In this document: piece after piece, positions 11,016-17,619 of the stretch
How positions within the stretch are numbered: the stretch's first letter is position 1
Layout of the letters: every line of letters starts with the position of its first letter
From: Serinicoccus sediminis
Lineage (GTDB): Bacteria; Actinomycetota; Actinomycetes; Actinomycetales; Dermatophilaceae
Length of the DNA stretch: 64,000 nt
Assembly: GCF_004153545.1 (NCBI RefSeq)
Contig: NZ_SDVA01000002.1
Location: forward strand, 124,001 to 188,000
Reading direction: 5' to 3'
Position numbers and translations under genes: made by a program
Notes under the pieces: generated by a model
Database searches by the model: none
The model's input: only the letters and a program-made list of their open reading frames with translations
Told to the model about the DNA's origin: nothing

Positions 11016-11723
11016 GTGCTCCTCGACCTGTGGGACCGTGCCACCACGACCCAGCCGCCGCTGACCTGGCCGGTCAGCCTGCTCGTGGGCGTGGCCGCGC
11101 TGGCGCTGACCTGGAGCCCGGCGGGCTACCGCCTGGTCCGCCACCTCGTCACCCTGGTGCACGAGGCCGGGCACGCGCTGGTGGCCGCGCTCGTCGGCCG
11201 GCGGCTGACCGGGATCCGGCTGCACTCCGACACCTCCGGCGTCACGGTGTCCCGCGGCCGCCCGCGCGGGCCGGGCATGGTGGCGACGGTCCTCGCCGGC
11301 TACCCGGCGCCGGCCCTGGTGGGGCTGGCCGGGGCCTACCTGCTGGGGGCCGGGTATGCCGCGGGCCTGCTCTGGGCGCTCGTCCTCACCTGCGCGCTCA
11401 TGCTGGTGCTCATCCGCAACCTCTACGGGCTGTGGGTCGTGCTCGCGACCGGCGCCAGCGTCGCGCTGCTGTCGTGGTCGGTGACCGGGCGGATGCTGTC
11501 GGCGGCGGCCTACCTCGTCGTGTGGTCGCTGCTGCTCGCCGCGCCACGCTCGGTGGTGGAGCTGCAGCGGCAGCGGCGCCGGCGGGGCGGGCAGGGCAGC
11601 GACGCCGACCAGCTCGCGGCGCTCACGGGGCTGCCGGCGCTGGTGTGGATCGTGCTCTTCTGGCTGGTCTGCGCGGTCTGCCTGGTCCTGGGTGCGCGCG
11701 AGCTGACTCAGGGCCTGGGGTAG
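11016..11723 (+). CDS. M50-like membrane metallopeptidase
   Basis: A 235-residue integral membrane protein of the M50B-like type. The zinc-binding HEXXH is VHEAGHALVAALVG (about residues 48-61), in the first third as in site-2-protease relatives. RLHSDTSGVTVSRGRP follows, then about five hydrophobic helices. In M50B-like proteins the second metal motif is often degenerate, and the Asp ligand is not obvious here. Start is uncertain: GTG at 11016 begins LLDLWDRATTTQPPLTW, where family members usually start; an in-frame ATG at 10956 would add 20 residues. The last 16 nt overlap the convergent sulfotransferase gene. Function of the family is unclear. Confidence 0.75.
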   Translation: MLLDLWDRATTTQPPLTWPVSLLVGVAALALTWSPAGYRLVRHLVTLVHEAGHALVAALVGRRLTGIRLHSDTSGVTVSRGRPRGPGMVATVLAGYPAPALVGLAGAYLLGAGYAAGLLWALVLTCALMLVLIRNLYGLWVVLATGASVALLSWSVTGRMLSAAAYLVVWSLLLAAPRSVVELQRQRRRRGGQGSDADQLAALTGLPALVWIVLFWLVCAVCLVLGARELTQGLG

Positions 11724-12340
11724 TCGAACGTGCGGAAGTCACGCTGGTAGAACCGGCGGGCCAGGCGACGGGTGGCGGCCGAGATCTCGACGTCGGCGGA
11801 ACGGCGGGGGCCCGAGCCGCTGTCCTTGAACTGCTCCGGGCCGCCCTCGAGGCCCAGCCGGTGGACGTCGCTCAACCGGCGCAGCCCCTCGGCGAGCCCG
11901 TCCTCCAGCCGCAGCACCTCGGCGCCCGGGACGAGGAACTCGTGCTGCGGGCGCAGGTGGTTGTCGAAGAGATAGGGGTTCTCCCGCGAGCGCTTCACCG
12001 ACCGGCGGAACCACGACGCGACCGCCGAGCCGCGCAGGTCGACCTCGTCCTTCTTGCGGTGCCGCCAGACGTACTCCGAGCGCAGCCGCGCCATCGGCTC
12101 GCGGACGACGGTGAAGACCAGGTCGAAGCGCTCGAGCCGGAAGAGCTGCCGCAGCGGCTCGCCGTGCAGGTGCTGCGGCCCGCAGACCATGAGGTGGTTG
12201 AGGGTGCCCTGGCCGTACTTCGCGCTGAAGAAGCCCTGCTCCCAGCCGTTGGCCCGGAAGAGGTGCTCGACCGAGGTGCCGCCGGTCTTGGGCACGTGGA
12301 TGAACAGCACGGACCGGCCGTCCTTGCGGTAGACGGGCAC
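11708..12340 (-). CDS. Sulfotransferase family protein
   Basis: A 210-residue cytoplasmic sulfotransferase-2-type protein. The PAPS 5'-phosphosulfate loop is FIHVPKTGGTSVEHLF (about residues 13-28), and the 3'-phosphate site is VFTVVREPMARLRSEYVWRH (about 74-93). These are the two diagnostic motifs of carbohydrate-type sulfotransferases. The acceptor is unknown; actinobacterial members are often near cell-surface polysaccharide genes, but no such cluster is present. The tail overlaps the M50-like gene by 16 nt in convergent orientation. ATG at 12340 directly precedes the first strand. Confidence 0.82.
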   Translation of the reverse strand: MPVYRKDGRSVLFIHVPKTGGTSVEHLFRANGWEQGFFSAKYGQGTLNHLMVCGPQHLHGEPLRQLFRLERFDLVFTVVREPMARLRSEYVWRHRKKDEVDLRGSAVASWFRRSVKRSRENPYLFDNHLRPQHEFLVPGAEVLRLEDGLAEGLRRLSDVHRLGLEGGPEQFKDSGSGPRRSADVEISAATRRLARRFYQRDFRTFDYPRP

Positions 12341-12407
12341 GAGGGGCTCCTCACGGGTCGGGGTCGAGGGTCAGGCTACGACGATCCCGGTCCCGGCGGG
12401 AGGCGGC

Positions 12408-12593
12408 TCACTCGGACGGCATGATGACCCACAGCACGAGGTAGGCGAGGATCTGCGGACCCGGCAGCAGCATCGAGAGCAGGAAGAGCACCCGGACGAG
12501 CCAGGGGCTCATGCCGAAGCGCCGGGCGAGACCGGCGCAGACACCGGCGAGGACGCGGCTGCGGGGGCGGACGAGGGCGGGTGAGCGTGCCAT
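12408..12593 (-). CDS. PspC domain protein (61 aa)
   Basis: A small membrane protein consisting of one PspC domain: RSRVLAGVCAGLARRFGMSPWLVRVLF followed by a hydrophobic helix ending LVLWVIMPSE. PspC domains of the phage-shock system sense membrane stress; stand-alone short versions are common in actinobacteria and need not belong to a PspA system. No pspA or pspB is nearby. ATG at 12593 has TACCGT 6 nt before it, so a leaderless transcript is predicted. The reading frame stays open further upstream, but that sequence is out of character. Confidence 0.85.
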   Translation of the reverse strand: MARSPALVRPRSRVLAGVCAGLARRFGMSPWLVRVLFLLSMLLPGPQILAYLVLWVIMPSE

Positions 12594-12721
12594 GGCCCCA
12601 CGGTAGGGCGGCCCGCTCCCGGGGACCAGGGGGGCGGCCTCCCGGGACGGTGGGGCCTGACCCCCGTGCCCGCGGTGCAGGGGGCCGACCCCGCGGAGGT
12701 GCCGAGCCCGCCGCGGGGGCC

Positions 12722-13252
12722 TCAGGGCTGGTGCCGCGGCACCCGGGCCAGCCGGGCCACCTCGTCGGTCGGCACCTCCTGGGCCTCGTTGGGGTAGCGC
12801 TGCGGCACCGCGTCGGCGACCCGGTAGACGCCGTCCGCGCGGACCAGCCAGCGGTAGTCCACGAGCTCGCGCCGCAGCGAGGCGACGTCCTCGTGCGCGG
12901 TGGCGAGCAGGGCGTTGACCTCTGGCTCGGCATACTCCCGTCCACGCTCGAAGCGCAGCAGCAGGTGCATGAGCACCGCTGCCCGCGGACGGCGCCGGGT
13001 GGGGATCGACCGCAGCCGCTCGCCGTCGAAGAACGAGGAGACCGCGCGGTCCGCAGCCAGGTCGGTCTCGACCACCAGGGCGCGCGGCGGCGGGTCCTCG
13101 GCCTCGGGCCGGGCCTCGGCGCGGGGCGGGCGCGCCGGTGGCGGCGCGGCGAGCAGCGCCTCGCGGGCGGCGGTGTAGGTCTCCCCGGTGCGGGTCATCC
13201 GCTCGCGCACCCGGGCCTTGAGGTCGGCATCGGTGGTCATGGTCGTGCTCAC
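12722..13252 (-). CDS. DUF2087 domain protein
   Basis: A 176-residue cytoplasmic protein. The C-terminal about 100 residues carry the DUF2087 winged-helix-like domain: FFDGERLRSIPTRRRPRAAVLMHLLLRF, then EYAEPEVNALLATAHEDVASLRRELVDYRWLVR. The N-terminal helix ADLKARVRERMTRTGETYTAAREAL resembles the basic N-terminus of several actinobacterial small proteins; a Pro/Ala-rich linker joins the two. DUF2087 is thought to be a nucleic-acid-binding fold in stress or RNA-associated proteins, but no activity is established. GTG at 13252 and ATG at 13240 are both possible starts. Confidence 0.8.
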   Translation of the reverse strand: MSTTMTTDADLKARVRERMTRTGETYTAAREALLAAPPPARPPRAEARPEAEDPPPRALVVETDLAADRAVSSFFDGERLRSIPTRRRPRAAVLMHLLLRFERGREYAEPEVNALLATAHEDVASLRRELVDYRWLVRADGVYRVADAVPQRYPNEAQEVPTDEVARLARVPRHQP

Positions 13253-13435
13253 GCATCCTTCGCGGACCGCTCGCCCCAGCCGCGGCAGGTCCTGGTGCGG
13301 TGCTCGACAGGTATGCCGTGTGCTCGCCGCGAGGATCTGCTCCCCTTCGCCCGGGTGACCGGCCGGCTGGGGGCGGGTCGGGCTGGGCGCTGCGGTGACG
13401 CCGGCCCCAGCATACCGACCTGTCGGGTGCCGACC

Positions 13436-14080
13436 TCAGGAGAAGAGGTGCAGAGCGCGCCCCAGCAGCAGCACCGCCCCCGCGGCGCAGGCCAGCACGG
13501 GCAGGAGCCGGCTGAGGGTGCTCTGCTCGCCGCCGTGCCGACGGTGCTCGAGCAGGCGCGGCGCGACCCGCACGAGGACGAGGGGCAGCCAGGCGGGAGC
13601 GAGCGCCAGGAGGACCAGGACGACCAGGAGCGGGACGGTCTCCGGGAGCGGCAGCCGGGCGGCTCCCACGTGCTGTCCGGCGGAGAGCATGAGCGGCAGC
13701 GTCGTGAGGTTGGTGGCCATCGCGGTGACCCCCAGCACCAGCGGGTTCTGCGCCCGAGCGGACCCGGAGGACTGCGTCGGGCGCTCCGCACGGCGGACCT
13801 TCACCACCAGGTAGCCGGCGTAGAGCAGGAGCAGCGCCCCCAGCGTGCCGTCCACGACCCGCGAGGCCAGGTCACGCTCGACGACCGTCGTCAGACCCGC
13901 TCCCAGCAGACCCGCCCCGAGCGCGACCACGAGGCTGAGGACGAGCGCGCCACCCAGCCCGTACCGCGCGGACGCGGCCCGTCCCTGACCCGTCAGCAGC
14001 GCGCTCGAGGTGGCGAAGATCAGCGGTGAGACCGCCCCGAGCAGCGCCAGGGGGAGGACCGTGCGCAGCAGCTCCACCAT
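13436..14080 (-). CDS. GAP family (LysE-like) membrane protein
   Basis: A 214-residue membrane protein with six predicted helices ([116 protein letters not shown]) matching the GAP/Sap group related to LysE-type exporters. The mycobacterial member is linked to export of sulfolipid or peptidoglycolipid, but the substrate here is unknown. TAGGCT lies 6 nt before the ATG at 14080, predicting a leaderless start. It stands alone between unrelated genes. Confidence 0.78.
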   Translation of the reverse strand: MVELLRTVLPLALLGAVSPLIFATSSALLTGQGRAASARYGLGGALVLSLVVALGAGLLGAGLTTVVERDLASRVVDGTLGALLLLYAGYLVVKVRRAERPTQSSGSARAQNPLVLGVTAMATNLTTLPLMLSAGQHVGAARLPLPETVPLLVVLVLLALAPAWLPLVLVRVAPRLLEHRRHGGEQSTLSRLLPVLACAAGAVLLLGRALHLFS

Positions 14081-14185: not shown

Positions 14186-15343
14186 TCATCCGGCCCGGGG
14201 ACCGGTGTAGACCCCGCGCAGGCGGAAGCGCATCCCCGGCTCGGCGAGCTCCTCGATGGCGTGCGCCGTCCACCCGGCGGTGCGGGCGCAGGCGAAGATC
14301 GCCGACCCGGCGTCCCGCGGCAGGTCGTGGGCGAGCATCAGCGCGGCGAGCGCGAGGTCGACGCTGAGCACCCAGCCGCGCCGCTCGGCGAGCTCGCTCT
14401 CGAGCAGCGACACGGCCTCCCGCAGGTCGTCACCGGCCTCGGGCAGCACGCGGTCGAGCAGCAGCTGGGCCCGGGGGTCGACCTCGGTGTAGACGACGTG
14501 CCCGAACCCCGGCGGCGGCCCGTCGGCCAGGGCCGCGGCCAGCGCGCCGCGCGGGTCCTCGACCGCTCCGCGCAGCCAGTCCAGCGCCTGCACCGAGGCC
14601 CCGACGTGCTGCGGGCTGTCCGCGGCGGCGAGCCCCGCCAGCAGGGCGGAGTACCCGTCCGCGCCCGCCGACACCGCCACCCGCACCGCCGTCGTCGACA
14701 CCGCGAGGTCGTGGTCGGCCAGCAGGACCAGGGCCAGGTCGACGAGGTCGGCCGGGAGTCCGAGGTATGCCGCGAGCGCCACCGCGGTCCTCTCACGGTC
14801 ACCCCCCGCGCCGGCCGGTGTCCCGGCCCCGACGGCCGCCACCATCGCCGACAGCGAGCGCGCCCCGGCCGTCGCGAACGCCTCGGGGCTGCGGTCGTGC
14901 CTCCCGAGGTCCTCCGCCCCGGCGACCAGGACGGCGTGCTTGAGGCGGTCGAGGAGCCGGGCCCCTGGCGGCAGTGCGGCCATGACCGCGTCGAGGACCG
15001 CGTCCGGCGGGCCGGCTGCCGCGGGCACGCCGGTGAGCAGGTCGCGCACCTCCTCGAAGGTCGAGGCGCCGGCGAGGCCCCGGACGTCGTGGCCGCGGTA
15101 GGCCAGGCCGCCCGGTCCGACCTGCGTGATGGCGGTCCGCACGTCGTCGCTGGTGGCCCGCGCTCCCCGTCGCCCCGACCGGCCCCTCCCGAGGGCCTGC
15201 ACGTCGGCGAGCGCGAAGACGCTGCCCACCCCCGGGTCGCGCCGCAGCGGCGCGAGCACCCCGCGGCTGACGTAGGCATACACCGTCTGCGTCTTGACCC
15301 CGAGGTAGTCGGCCACCTGGGCGGTGCTCAGCTCGCCGCTCAT
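14186..15343 (-). CDS. Citrate synthase-like protein with N-terminal helix-turn-helix
   Basis: A 385-residue fusion. Residues 1-45 (MSGELSTAQVADYLGVKTQTVYAYVSRGVL) are a MerR/excisionase-type HTH; from about 75 on is a citrate synthase fold beginning TAITQVGPGGLAYRGHDV. The catalytic His region is GFGHVVYTEVDPR (near 285), but the other His motif is SPQHVGASVQ instead of the canonical GPLHGGA, so full activity is uncertain. It is divergent from a normal-looking citrate synthase across a 52-bp spacer with two TTGA/TCAA dyads. It may be a regulator sensing acetyl-CoA or oxaloacetate, or a bifunctional enzyme. Such pairs are known in Streptomyces; their logic is not settled. Confidence 0.85.
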   Translation of the reverse strand: MSGELSTAQVADYLGVKTQTVYAYVSRGVLAPLRRDPGVGSVFALADVQALGRGRSGRRGARATSDDVRTAITQVGPGGLAYRGHDVRGLAGASTFEEVRDLLTGVPAAAGPPDAVLDAVMAALPPGARLLDRLKHAVLVAGAEDLGRHDRSPEAFATAGARSLSAMVAAVGAGTPAGAGGDRERTAVALAAYLGLPADLVDLALVLLADHDLAVSTTAVRVAVSAGADGYSALLAGLAAADSPQHVGASVQALDWLRGAVEDPRGALAAALADGPPPGFGHVVYTEVDPRAQLLLDRVLPEAGDDLREAVSLLESELAERRGWVLSVDLALAALMLAHDLPRDAGSAIFACARTAGWTAHAIEELAEPGMRFRLRGVYTGPRAG

Positions 15344-15344
15344 G

Positions 15345-15374
15345 TTGACGTGATCAACGTTGACACGAGATCAA
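15345..15374. promoter_or_regulatory. Paired dyads between the two citrate synthase genes
   Basis: TTGACGTGATCAA (15345-15357) and TTGACACGAGATCAA (15360-15374) are two similar TTGA...TCAA inverted repeats only 2 bp apart, sitting over the promoters of both divergent genes. The obvious candidate binder is the HTH of the citrate synthase-like protein, but this is inference. Confidence 0.55.
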
Positions 15375-15395
15375 CCCTAGCGGCACGCTCGCCCC

Positions 15396-16532
15396 ATGAG
15401 CACGCAGATCGCCCCGCCCGGCCTCAAGGGCCTCGTCGTCGCCCGCACCGCGACCGGCGACGTCCGCGGGGAGGAGGGTTTCTACCACTTCCGGCAGTAC
15501 TCCGCCGTCGACCTGGCGCGGCACCGCAGCTTCGAGGACGTCGCGCACCTCATGGTCGAGGGTCACCTGCCGGACGAGCAGGAGTCCGCCGCCTTCGCCA
15601 CCGAGCTCGCGGCCGCCTCCACCCTGCCGCACGCGCTGCTGGAGCAGCTGCTCGCCATCGCCCGGTCCGGCCCGGACCGCGGCGCCCTGGCCCGGCTGCG
15701 CACGGCCCTCTCCCTGCTGGGGTCGGTCGAGGAGTTCCCGGCGACCTACGGCGCCAGCCCCGCGCAGGTGCGCGCGGGCGTCCTCCGGCTCATCGGGGTC
15801 GTGCCGGTGCTGCAGGCCGCGCTCTTCCGTCTGCGCTCGGGTAGGCCGCCGCTCGAGCCGCGCCCGGAGCTCGGCGCCGGCGGCAGCTGGCTGTGGATGC
15901 TGACCGGTCAGGAGCCCGAGCCGGAGCACGCGGCGGCAGTGACGGCATACCTCACCAGCACCGTCGACCACGGCTTCAGCGCGTCGACCTTCACCGCCCG
16001 CGTCGTCACCTCGGCCGGCGCCGACGTCGTGTCCGCGGTCTGCGGCGCGATCGGGACGTTCTCCGGGCCGCTGCACGGAGGGGCGCCGGACCGCGCGCTG
16101 GACTCCCTCGACGAGATCGGCACGCCGGACCGGGCGCGGGAGTGGGTGCGCGAGCGGGTCGCCGCCGGCGAGCGCATCATGGGCTTCGGCCACGCGGTCT
16201 ACCGCACCGTCGACCCCAGGGCGGTCCTGCTGCGCGAGCACGCGCAGGTGCTCGGCGGCCCGCTGGCCGAGCTGGCGGTGCAGGTCGAACGCGAGGTGGT
16301 GGACGCCCTCGCCGAGCTCAAGCCCGGGCGCGAGCTGCACACCAACGTGGAGTACTACGCCGGCGTCGTCATGGAGCAGTGCGGGATCCCCCGGGAGATG
16401 TTCACCCCGACCTTCGCGACCGCGCGGATCGTCGGGTGGGGCGCCCACGTCCTCGAGCAGGCGGGCGACCCGCGCATCATCCGCCCGGCGGCGGAGTACG
16501 TCGGGCCTCAGGCCCCCGCGCCGCTGCCCTGA
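15396..16532 (+). CDS. Citrate synthase / 2-methylcitrate synthase
   Basis: A 378-residue cytoplasmic type-I-like citrate synthase that condenses acetyl-CoA (or propionyl-CoA) with oxaloacetate. The N-terminus PPGLKGLVVARTATGDVRGEEGFYHFRQY is the usual start of short Gram-positive enzymes. Catalytic histidines lie in SGPLHGGAPDRA (near 228) and IMGFGHAVYRTVDPR (near 262), and TFATARIVGWGAHVLEQ is the conserved C-terminal block. Length is normal. Whether it serves the TCA or methylcitrate cycle cannot be read from motifs; no prpB or prpD is adjacent. It is divergent from the HTH-bearing paralogue, which probably regulates it. Confidence 0.88.
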   Translation: MSTQIAPPGLKGLVVARTATGDVRGEEGFYHFRQYSAVDLARHRSFEDVAHLMVEGHLPDEQESAAFATELAAASTLPHALLEQLLAIARSGPDRGALARLRTALSLLGSVEEFPATYGASPAQVRAGVLRLIGVVPVLQAALFRLRSGRPPLEPRPELGAGGSWLWMLTGQEPEPEHAAAVTAYLTSTVDHGFSASTFTARVVTSAGADVVSAVCGAIGTFSGPLHGGAPDRALDSLDEIGTPDRAREWVRERVAAGERIMGFGHAVYRTVDPRAVLLREHAQVLGGPLAELAVQVEREVVDALAELKPGRELHTNVEYYAGVVMEQCGIPREMFTPTFATARIVGWGAHVLEQAGDPRIIRPAAEYVGPQAPAPLP

Positions 16533-16620: not shown

Positions 16621-17619
16621 ATGCCCGAGCAGCCCACGAGCCTCACGCTCACCGCCCCCGGCATCCAGGTCGGCCTGCTCAGCACCGGCGCCGCCGTCAC
16701 CCGCGTCGAGCTGACCGACGCGCACGGCGAGGGCCCGGTCGACGTCGTCCTCGGCCACCGCGACCTCGCGGCATACCAGGAGGTCAGGGACTTCCACGGC
16801 GCCACCATCGGGCGGGTCGCCAACCGCATCGACGGCGGCCGGTTCCAGCTCGGCGACGAGCAGGTCGAGGTGCCGCTGGACCCGGACGAGCCGCACGCGC
16901 TGCACGGTGGACCGGACGGCTTCGACCAGCGCGAGTGGACCCTCGTCGAGGCCACCGAGGACCGTGCCGCCTGGTCGCTCACCTCCCCGGACGGCGACCA
17001 GGGCTTCCCCGGCGAGGTCGAGGTCGAGGTGCGGTATGCCGTCGCGCCCGGCCTCCTCACCGTCGAGCACCGCGCCACCACCTCGGCGCCGACGGTGGTG
17101 AGCCTGACGAACCACAGCTACTGGAACCTCGACGGCGAGGGCTCGGGGGACGTGCTGGGCCACACCCTGCAGGTCGACGCCGACACCTACCTGCCGCTGC
17201 GGGCCGACCAGATCCCGACCGGCGAGCTGCGCGACGTCACCGGGACGCCCTTCGACCTGCGTCGCCCCGTCGCCCTCGGCGACGCGATGGCCGAGGACGA
17301 CGAGCAGCTCACGATCGGCCAGGGCTTCGACCACCACCTCGTCGTCTCCGGCGACGGCCTGCGCCGGCACGCGGTGCTCGTCGGACGTTCGGGCCGCCGT
17401 CTGGAGGTGTGGAGCGACCGGCCCGGGGTGCAGGTGTATGCCGGTGCCCACTTCGACGGCACGGTCACCGGGCCGCGGGGGGTCGCCTACCGTCCGCGCG
17501 CCGGGGTCGCGCTGGAGACGCAGGCCCACCCGGACGCGGTGAACCACCCACGCTTCCCGTCGGTCGTCCTGCTGCCGGGACAGACCTACACCTCCACCAC
17601 GCAGTGGCGATTCAGCTGA
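16621..17619 (+). CDS. galM: Aldose 1-epimerase (mutarotase)
   Basis: A 332-residue galactose mutarotase-family enzyme interconverting alpha and beta anomers of aldoses in the cytoplasm. Conserved blocks: GATIGRVANRIDGGRF (about 60-75), the catalytic His region LTNHSYWNLDGEGSGDVLGHTLQV (about 161-184, cut here by family convention at NHSYWNL), FDHHLVV near 238, and a C-terminal ETQAHPDAVNHPRFPS containing the acid/base Glu. ATG at 16621 follows a GAGGACG ribosome site. TAGGCT at 16566-16571 is a likely -10. No galactose operon is nearby, so it is probably a general sugar-metabolism gene. Confidence 0.9.
   Translation: MPEQPTSLTLTAPGIQVGLLSTGAAVTRVELTDAHGEGPVDVVLGHRDLAAYQEVRDFHGATIGRVANRIDGGRFQLGDEQVEVPLDPDEPHALHGGPDGFDQREWTLVEATEDRAAWSLTSPDGDQGFPGEVEVEVRYAVAPGLLTVEHRATTSAPTVVSLTNHSYWNLDGEGSGDVLGHTLQVDADTYLPLRADQIPTGELRDVTGTPFDLRRPVALGDAMAEDDEQLTIGQGFDHHLVVSGDGLRRHAVLVGRSGRRLEVWSDRPGVQVYAGAHFDGTVTGPRGVAYRPRAGVALETQAHPDAVNHPRFPSVVLLPGQTYTSTTQWRFS

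Follow-up and report, generated by a model that had tools for sequence, protein, structure and literature searches.

An N-terminal helix-turn-helix head joined to a citrate synthase-like body makes up a Serinicoccus sediminis protein, here HTH-CS, that is on the whole probably a one-component regulator derived from citrate synthase; it would sense citrate or oxaloacetate and control a second citrate synthase (the partner), probably as a repressor. The two genes are divergent, with start codons 52 nt apart, in a 64,000-nt stretch of contig NZ_SDVA01000002.1 (the window), and both reading frames lie exactly where the original prediction placed them (Table 1). Sequence comparison makes it very probable that HTH-CS binds DNA and regulates the citrate synthase next to it; the comparison supports the gene pairing, the operator, the link between operator and citrate synthase promoter, and the retention of the pocket. 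The original prediction spoke of an enzyme turned metabolite-sensing regulator. This reading survives comparison, through the pair, the single-locus operator and the tie of the pocket to pairing, but the reason given for it, a degenerate active-site histidine, does not. We found no description of an HTH-citrate synthase regulator in the literature searched, a collection thin in subscription papers.

Table 1. Features of the HTH-CS/partner locus, in window coordinates
Feature	Position	Strand	Length	Remarks
HTH-CS gene	14186-15343	-	385 aa	HTH_17 plus citrate-synthase-like protein; proposed regulator
DNA-binding head (predicted), residues 1-54	15182-15343	-		Helices 7-14, 18-26, 45-54 and wing; PF12728, model secondary structure
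Flexible linker, residues 57-64	15152-15175	-		Sole segment with pLDDT <50
Citrate-synthase-like sensor domain (proposed), residues 69-385	14189-15139	-		PF00285, 6abx profile match, VIA-align
SPQHVGAS, residues 243-250, first active-site His segment (H246)	14594-14617	-		His in 108/109 relatives
H282, second active-site His (GFGH)	14498-14500	-		Kept in 107/109
D329, catalytic Asp position	14357-14359	-		Asp in 109/109 HTH-CS, Glu in 104/104 partners
Candidate operator dyad 1, GTTGACGTGATCAAC	15344-15358	either		
Candidate operator dyad 2, GTTGACACGAGATCAAC	15359-15375	either		
TTGACA, proposed -35 box of partner promoter, also half-site	15360-15365	+		36 nt before start codon
CACGCT, proposed -10 box, leaderless start at 15396	15384-15389	+		By eye; inferred, weak
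Partner citrate synthase, CitA type	15396-16532	+	378 aa	Full Citrate_synt protein; proposed target gene
Glu319 of partner, catalytic Asp position	16350-16352	+		Common to 104/104 aligned partners

Domains, pocket and synthase activity of HTH-CS

Both domains of HTH-CS pass the Pfam gathering cut-offs: PF12728 (HTH_17) at residues 5-34 (E 2.4e-6; 28.1 bits against 27) and PF00285 (Citrate_synt) at residues 69-368 (E 5.2e-47; 161 bits against 27). The head had been described as MerR/excisionase-like, of which only the second half fits. We dropped MerR-family membership, and since the MerR models score below their cut-offs (PF00376, 19.3 against 28.2 bits; MerR_1, PF13411, 17.7 against 21.6), excisionase-like is the better label. 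The head also matches PDB 4j2n (Gp37; E 5e-4), and its residues L14, T20, Y22, Y24, S26 and R27 are near-invariant among HTH-CS relatives. It has the helix-turn-helix in common with HTH_17/excisionase-like and MerR-like domains but differs from them in its fusion to a metabolic enzyme domain. As in one-component regulators, a DNA-binding domain is fused to a sensor-type domain, and a conserved operator-like site lies at the target promoter.

For the body, the best solved match of the HTH-CS family profile is the M. sedula citrate synthase 6abx (E 1e-62). The single-chain AlphaFold2 model of HTH-CS (mean pLDDT 92) matched citrate and methylcitrate synthases in VIA-align with Z up to 35.6, in rows that mostly leave the head uncovered; that highest score, to 3o8j, came with an rmsd of 2.2 over 315 residues, as expected of a citrate synthase fold. 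The model agrees with a head tethered loosely to a citrate synthase body.

The accessible text on the M. sedula enzyme (PMC6386500) gives His214, His253 and Asp307 as catalytic, and Arg262, Arg332 and, from the other subunit, Arg351 as binding citrate; Arg351 touches citrate and not oxaloacetate, and each of the two ligands drives domain closure. In the alignment to 6abx, these six residues correspond to H246, H282, D329, R291, R354 and R374 of HTH-CS, conserved in 108, 107, 109, 109, 108 and 109 of 109 HTH-CS proteins, respectively; H211, the one pocket residue of seven outside this mapping, is kept in 108. HTH-CS therefore has the catalytic His/His/Asp and the citrate arginines of a functional synthase. 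The letters SPQHVGAS had been reported correctly, but the motif is not degenerate: the family consensus at this segment is GPLHG, and since H246 and the other pocket residues are kept family-wide, SPQHVGAS is local variation around an intact histidine. We rejected the idea of a dead pocket, its residues being kept in nearly all 109 proteins. The pocket probably binds citrate or oxaloacetate as a signal, and the invariance of R374 and D329 speaks for citrate as the likelier of the two.

Several basic residues common to the partners are mostly or wholly missing in HTH-CS: R280 (102/104 partners against 0/109 HTH-CS), K309 (97/104 against 0/109), R233 (98/104 against 10/109), R360 (100/104 against 13/109), R260 (103/104 against 31/109) and R270 (103/104 against 43/109). 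At the equivalents of R270, R280 and K309 the window HTH-CS has T286, L296 and a gap. We take the R270 and K309 regions to bind CoA in other citrate synthases; the lost residues presumably sit on the CoA side. HTH-CS scored below the cut-offs of all NCBIfam synthase models (TIGR01800, NF009005 and others; best 104.7 against 421.3 bits), a weak test because the partner enzyme fails the same model too (313.4 bits), as well as NF009005 (309.3 against 332). A short loop before the catalytic acid is weakened as proof of lost activity, since PrpC 6s6f, an active-type synthase, aligns there gap-free. HTH-CS shares fold, pocket, and GFGH and DPR motifs with citrate and 2-methylcitrate synthases (PF00285; 6abx, PrpC 6s6f, 2c6x) and differs from them by the N-terminal helix-turn-helix, the lost basic residues and the sub-cut-off NCBIfam scores; it is quite probable that it has no meaningful synthase activity.

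The gene pair and its intergenic site

The closest solved chain to the partner is 2c6x (E 7e-79), which we take to be B. subtilis CitA. The partner had been credited with the canonical GPLHGGA motif, which it has, but it is not quite a canonical enzyme: Glu replaces the catalytic Asp; 2c6x has this Glu as well. Two further citrate synthase matches in the genome, at the ends of contigs C11 and C77, appear to be parts of a single main citrate synthase gene that is split. Pfam assigned the neighbours of the pair in the window (11708-14080, minus strand; 16621-17619, plus strand) as a sulfotransferase, a DUF2087 protein, a Sap (SfLAP) membrane protein and an aldose 1-epimerase, and these assignments show no tie to citrate metabolism. 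Elsewhere, the partner at L059:2394-3911 carries N-terminal CBS domains (PF00571, two stretches; Pfam), and a CBS-like partner extension seems, by eye, likewise present in the long spacers of L064, L068, L088, L090 and L092. These apparent CBS-bearing partners come from Acidimicrobiia and related MAGs, and the CBS domains suggest that the enzyme may be under extra nucleotide control.

The pair is, to judge from its distribution, ancient and widespread. Among 99 genomes of the same family we found 30 HTH-CS loci, each with a canonical citrate synthase next to it on the other strand (15 pairs divergent, 15 convergent); a 31st locus, in G050, is truncated by the end of its contig. Of 80 named relatives, 78 have a citrate synthase neighbour, 77 divergent (in L064 about 3.1 kb away) and one convergent (L048), and two have none in the locus; a citrate synthase gene is also adjacent in 29/29 further Caulobacteraceae loci examined. 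All locus counts are raw and ignore relatedness. The named relatives include Serinicoccus, Ornithinimicrobium, Gordonia, Kribbella, Actinoplanes, Streptomyces and Acidimicrobiia as well as Roseibium, Novosphingobium, Phenylobacterium and one myxococcal MAG. A phylum sample of 296 genomes yielded 28 with a full-length HTH-CS match (E <1e-85, start at profile position <=5) and one with a truncated match. In a tree of 71 rows the HTH-CS proteins and the partners each formed a clade of their own (SH-aLRT 100 and 90, respectively), and HTH-CS and partner distances were correlated over 103 pairs (r 0.653; permuted maximum 0.147). Left out of counts were L048 (same contig as L009) and L127-L129 (repeats of L036, L080 and L114); L034, a fragmentary match, entered neither the residue set nor the tree set, and L096 (all seven pocket residues intact) and L168 (HTH-CS within a 996-aa reading frame) were also left out.

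The two TTGA/TCAA dyads predicted between the genes are indeed there, and jointly they form a conserved core, TCAACGTTGAC. The pattern GTTGAN{3,9}TCAAC occurs at seven sites in the 3.55-Mb genome, two of them the window dyads, against four in a backward-read control. The three-half-site form TTGAN5TCAANNTTGA, allowing at most one mismatch, occurs once in the window (0 in 100 shuffles), and the only match in the window's genome is at the HTH-CS/partner spacer. Among the 115 of 121 divergent spacers scanned for motifs (<=300 nt; six longer ones left out), 106 contain the core TCAANNTTGA (shuffled mean 0.40, maximum 3) and nine lack it; the three-half-site form occurs in 64 of the 115 (shuffled 0.01). 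Across the 99 family genomes this form gave 40 matches. By position, 32 belong to the HTH-CS locus and are spread over 21 genomes, G027 contributing two, of which one is at a broken second citrate synthase copy; the remaining eight are close to the backward-read control total of seven. The second citrate synthase copy of G027 (L116, G027:C3:209000-221000), apparently frame-broken, lies about 2.5 kb off and has kept the operator upstream.

Convergent pairs separate the two genes' upstream regions. There, 8 of the 11 citrate synthase upstream regions that span >=60 nt contain TTGAN5TCAA, against 0/15 of those in front of HTH-CS. By eye, it also precedes citrate synthase in L012 and L022 (shorter flanks) and in L118; it is missing from L013, L015 and L019, that is, from 3 of 14 readable convergent citrate synthase promoters, L021 being left out. 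Because convergent pairs keep the motif there only, it stays with the citrate synthase promoter when the regulator gene flips. The final TTG of the core precedes the partner start codon by 35-37 nt in 29 of 119 loci, the spacing that the -35 box of a leaderless promoter would give; -10 boxes are weak by information content across loci. Taken from these motif comparisons, HTH-CS is highly likely to act via the TTGA/TCAA operator.

HTH-CS genes without a citrate synthase neighbour

All seven pocket residues are present in 131 of 135 HTH-CS proteins paired with a citrate synthase (104/106 plus 27/29) against 0/12 unpaired ones, 11 of the 12 unpaired loci coming from 12 regions hand-chosen since no citrate synthase gene showed nearby. 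The 12 comprise 11 Caulobacteraceae loci (L159-L167, L169, L170) and L103. Each of the 11 Caulobacteraceae proteins has lost at least one of H246, H282 and D329, and all 11 keep the head residues L14, T20, Y22, Y24 and R27. On the tree, pocket loss needs at least three separate changes; because ten of the unpaired proteins form one clade, we count three or more loss events, not twelve. That the head outlasts the pocket argues that DNA binding would be the basic function of HTH-CS, and that the pocket is kept beside a citrate synthase argues that it would read that enzyme's product or substrate.

In L159-L165 and L169 the unpaired paralogue with its degraded pocket lies beside uppP/bacA, and a cation diffusion facilitator gene is often its divergent neighbour. 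Pfam confirmed a divergent cation-efflux gene in L159, L164, L165 and L166, and the core TCAANNTTGA is found upstream of the unpaired HTH-CS gene in L163, L164, L165 and L169. In Microbacterium marinilacus (L103:2126-5173), the HTH-CS gene and an SdhA-like flavoprotein gene point away from each other, with a TTGA/TCAA core between them; the sole pocket residue lost from this HTH-CS is H211, replaced by Ser. Two further L103 reading frames, which may not be genes, had no Pfam domain. Other candidate targets are the cation-efflux genes in Caulobacteraceae and the SdhA-like flavoprotein gene in Microbacterium marinilacus. We lean towards the view that a widespread and so far undescribed class of one-component regulators uses the citrate synthase fold as its sensor module; the intact pocket would read citrate when the protein governs a second citrate synthase, and would have been lost repeatedly, with the head kept, on moving to other targets.

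Proposed mechanism, alternatives and known systems

We propose that the whole citrate synthase domain would serve as the sensor. A dimer of citrate synthase type would place its two N-terminal heads, each a helix-turn-helix, on the TTGA/TCAA operator; we infer this dimer geometry, as we do DNA binding, the ligand, the sign of regulation and the loss of synthase activity. Because the operator would overlap the partner -35 box and abuts the HTH-CS start codon, binding would most simply repress both genes. Citrate or oxaloacetate would enter the retained pocket, and the open-to-closed movement of the fold would alter DNA binding, so that expression of the second citrate synthase would be coupled to its product or substrate pool.

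A repressor is moderately favoured over an activator, because one half-site coincides with the -35 box. An activating HTH-CS, sitting just upstream of and on the -35 box and recruiting RNA polymerase at low citrate or high oxaloacetate, is possible though doubtful: the centre of dyad 1 is about 45 nt ahead of the proposed start, a usual activator position, and the -10 boxes appear poor, but the final half-site and the -35 hexamer are one and the same, so that bound HTH-CS would compete with sigma, and the window operator abuts the HTH-CS start codon. It is unlikely that HTH-CS is instead a trigger enzyme, still working as a (methyl)citrate synthase while also binding DNA, with catalytic occupancy as the signal. 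The retention of the three catalytic residues and the citrate arginines speaks for such an enzyme and counts against a sensor, since a dead enzyme would not need them, and fold and profile resemble active enzymes, with PrpC among the top matches. The basic residues conserved in the partner are, however, lost from HTH-CS, the likely Caulobacter member, discussed below, failed gltA complementation, and the TIGR01800 and PRK12350 scores are far below cut-off.

The TTGA/TCAA motif might belong to another regulator (AcrT, MtrA or GlnR), with HTH-CS not binding it, which we regard as improbable. The main competing candidate for the site is AcrT, which we take to be a TetR-family protein. According to two reports, AcrT of S. 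erythraea recognises an nttGaTc motif at the citrate synthase promoter of SACE_0632-0633 (PMC8546615), and MtrA of S. coelicolor binds the intergenic region between SCO5831 and SCO5832 (PMC12323332). Many sites would be expected of a global regulator, whereas the three-half-site motif is limited to the HTH-CS locus in the family sample, save chance-level matches, and the core is also upstream of several unpaired HTH-CS genes. That HTH-CS is a duplicate in decay, without any regulatory role, is hardly credible; SPQHVGAS, as an example of local drift, would agree with decay, but helix-turn-helix and pocket residues are near-invariant over actinobacteria, alphaproteobacteria and a myxococcal MAG, HTH-CS forms a single clade, and its distances track those of the partner well beyond the permuted maximum.

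The proposed regulator has parallels in layout and in design. In Bacillus subtilis, the regulator CitR is divergent from the second citrate synthase gene citA, the same layout as that of HTH-CS and its partner, but CitR is of LysR type and not derived from citrate synthase. BirA, PutA, NadR and NagC/ROK combine a metabolic enzyme fold with a DNA-binding head as a sensor; HTH-CS shares this design and differs in fold, since to our knowledge none of the four uses the citrate synthase fold.

SCO5831/SCO5832 (citA3/citA4) of S. coelicolor are two citrate synthase genes with a common intergenic region, as in the HTH-CS/partner pair, and neither is presented as a regulator in the excerpted texts of the papers concerned (PMC12323332, PMC9739823). 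For Caulobacter crescentus, the excerpted text of one study (PMC7083601) reports complementation of an E. coli gltA mutant by CitB (CCNA_03757) but none by CitC (CCNA_03758), and gives identities to B. subtilis CitA of 37% and 32%, respectively; CitC is called a putative citrate synthase, and that text names no helix-turn-helix. Our Caulobacteraceae medians against the same protein are 36.6% for the partner (29 proteins) and 32.4% for HTH-CS (30 proteins). Since these two citrate synthase paralogues have consecutive locus numbers and their identities match the partner and HTH-CS medians, CitC is probably a member of the HTH-CS family.

If HTH-CS proteins are regulators, many actinobacterial and alphaproteobacterial genes would be misnamed. 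This would also account for some of the redundancy among Streptomyces citrate synthases and for the silent CitC of Caulobacter, and would offer a citrate sensor whose pocket is known and whose regulon is a single site, open to direct testing.
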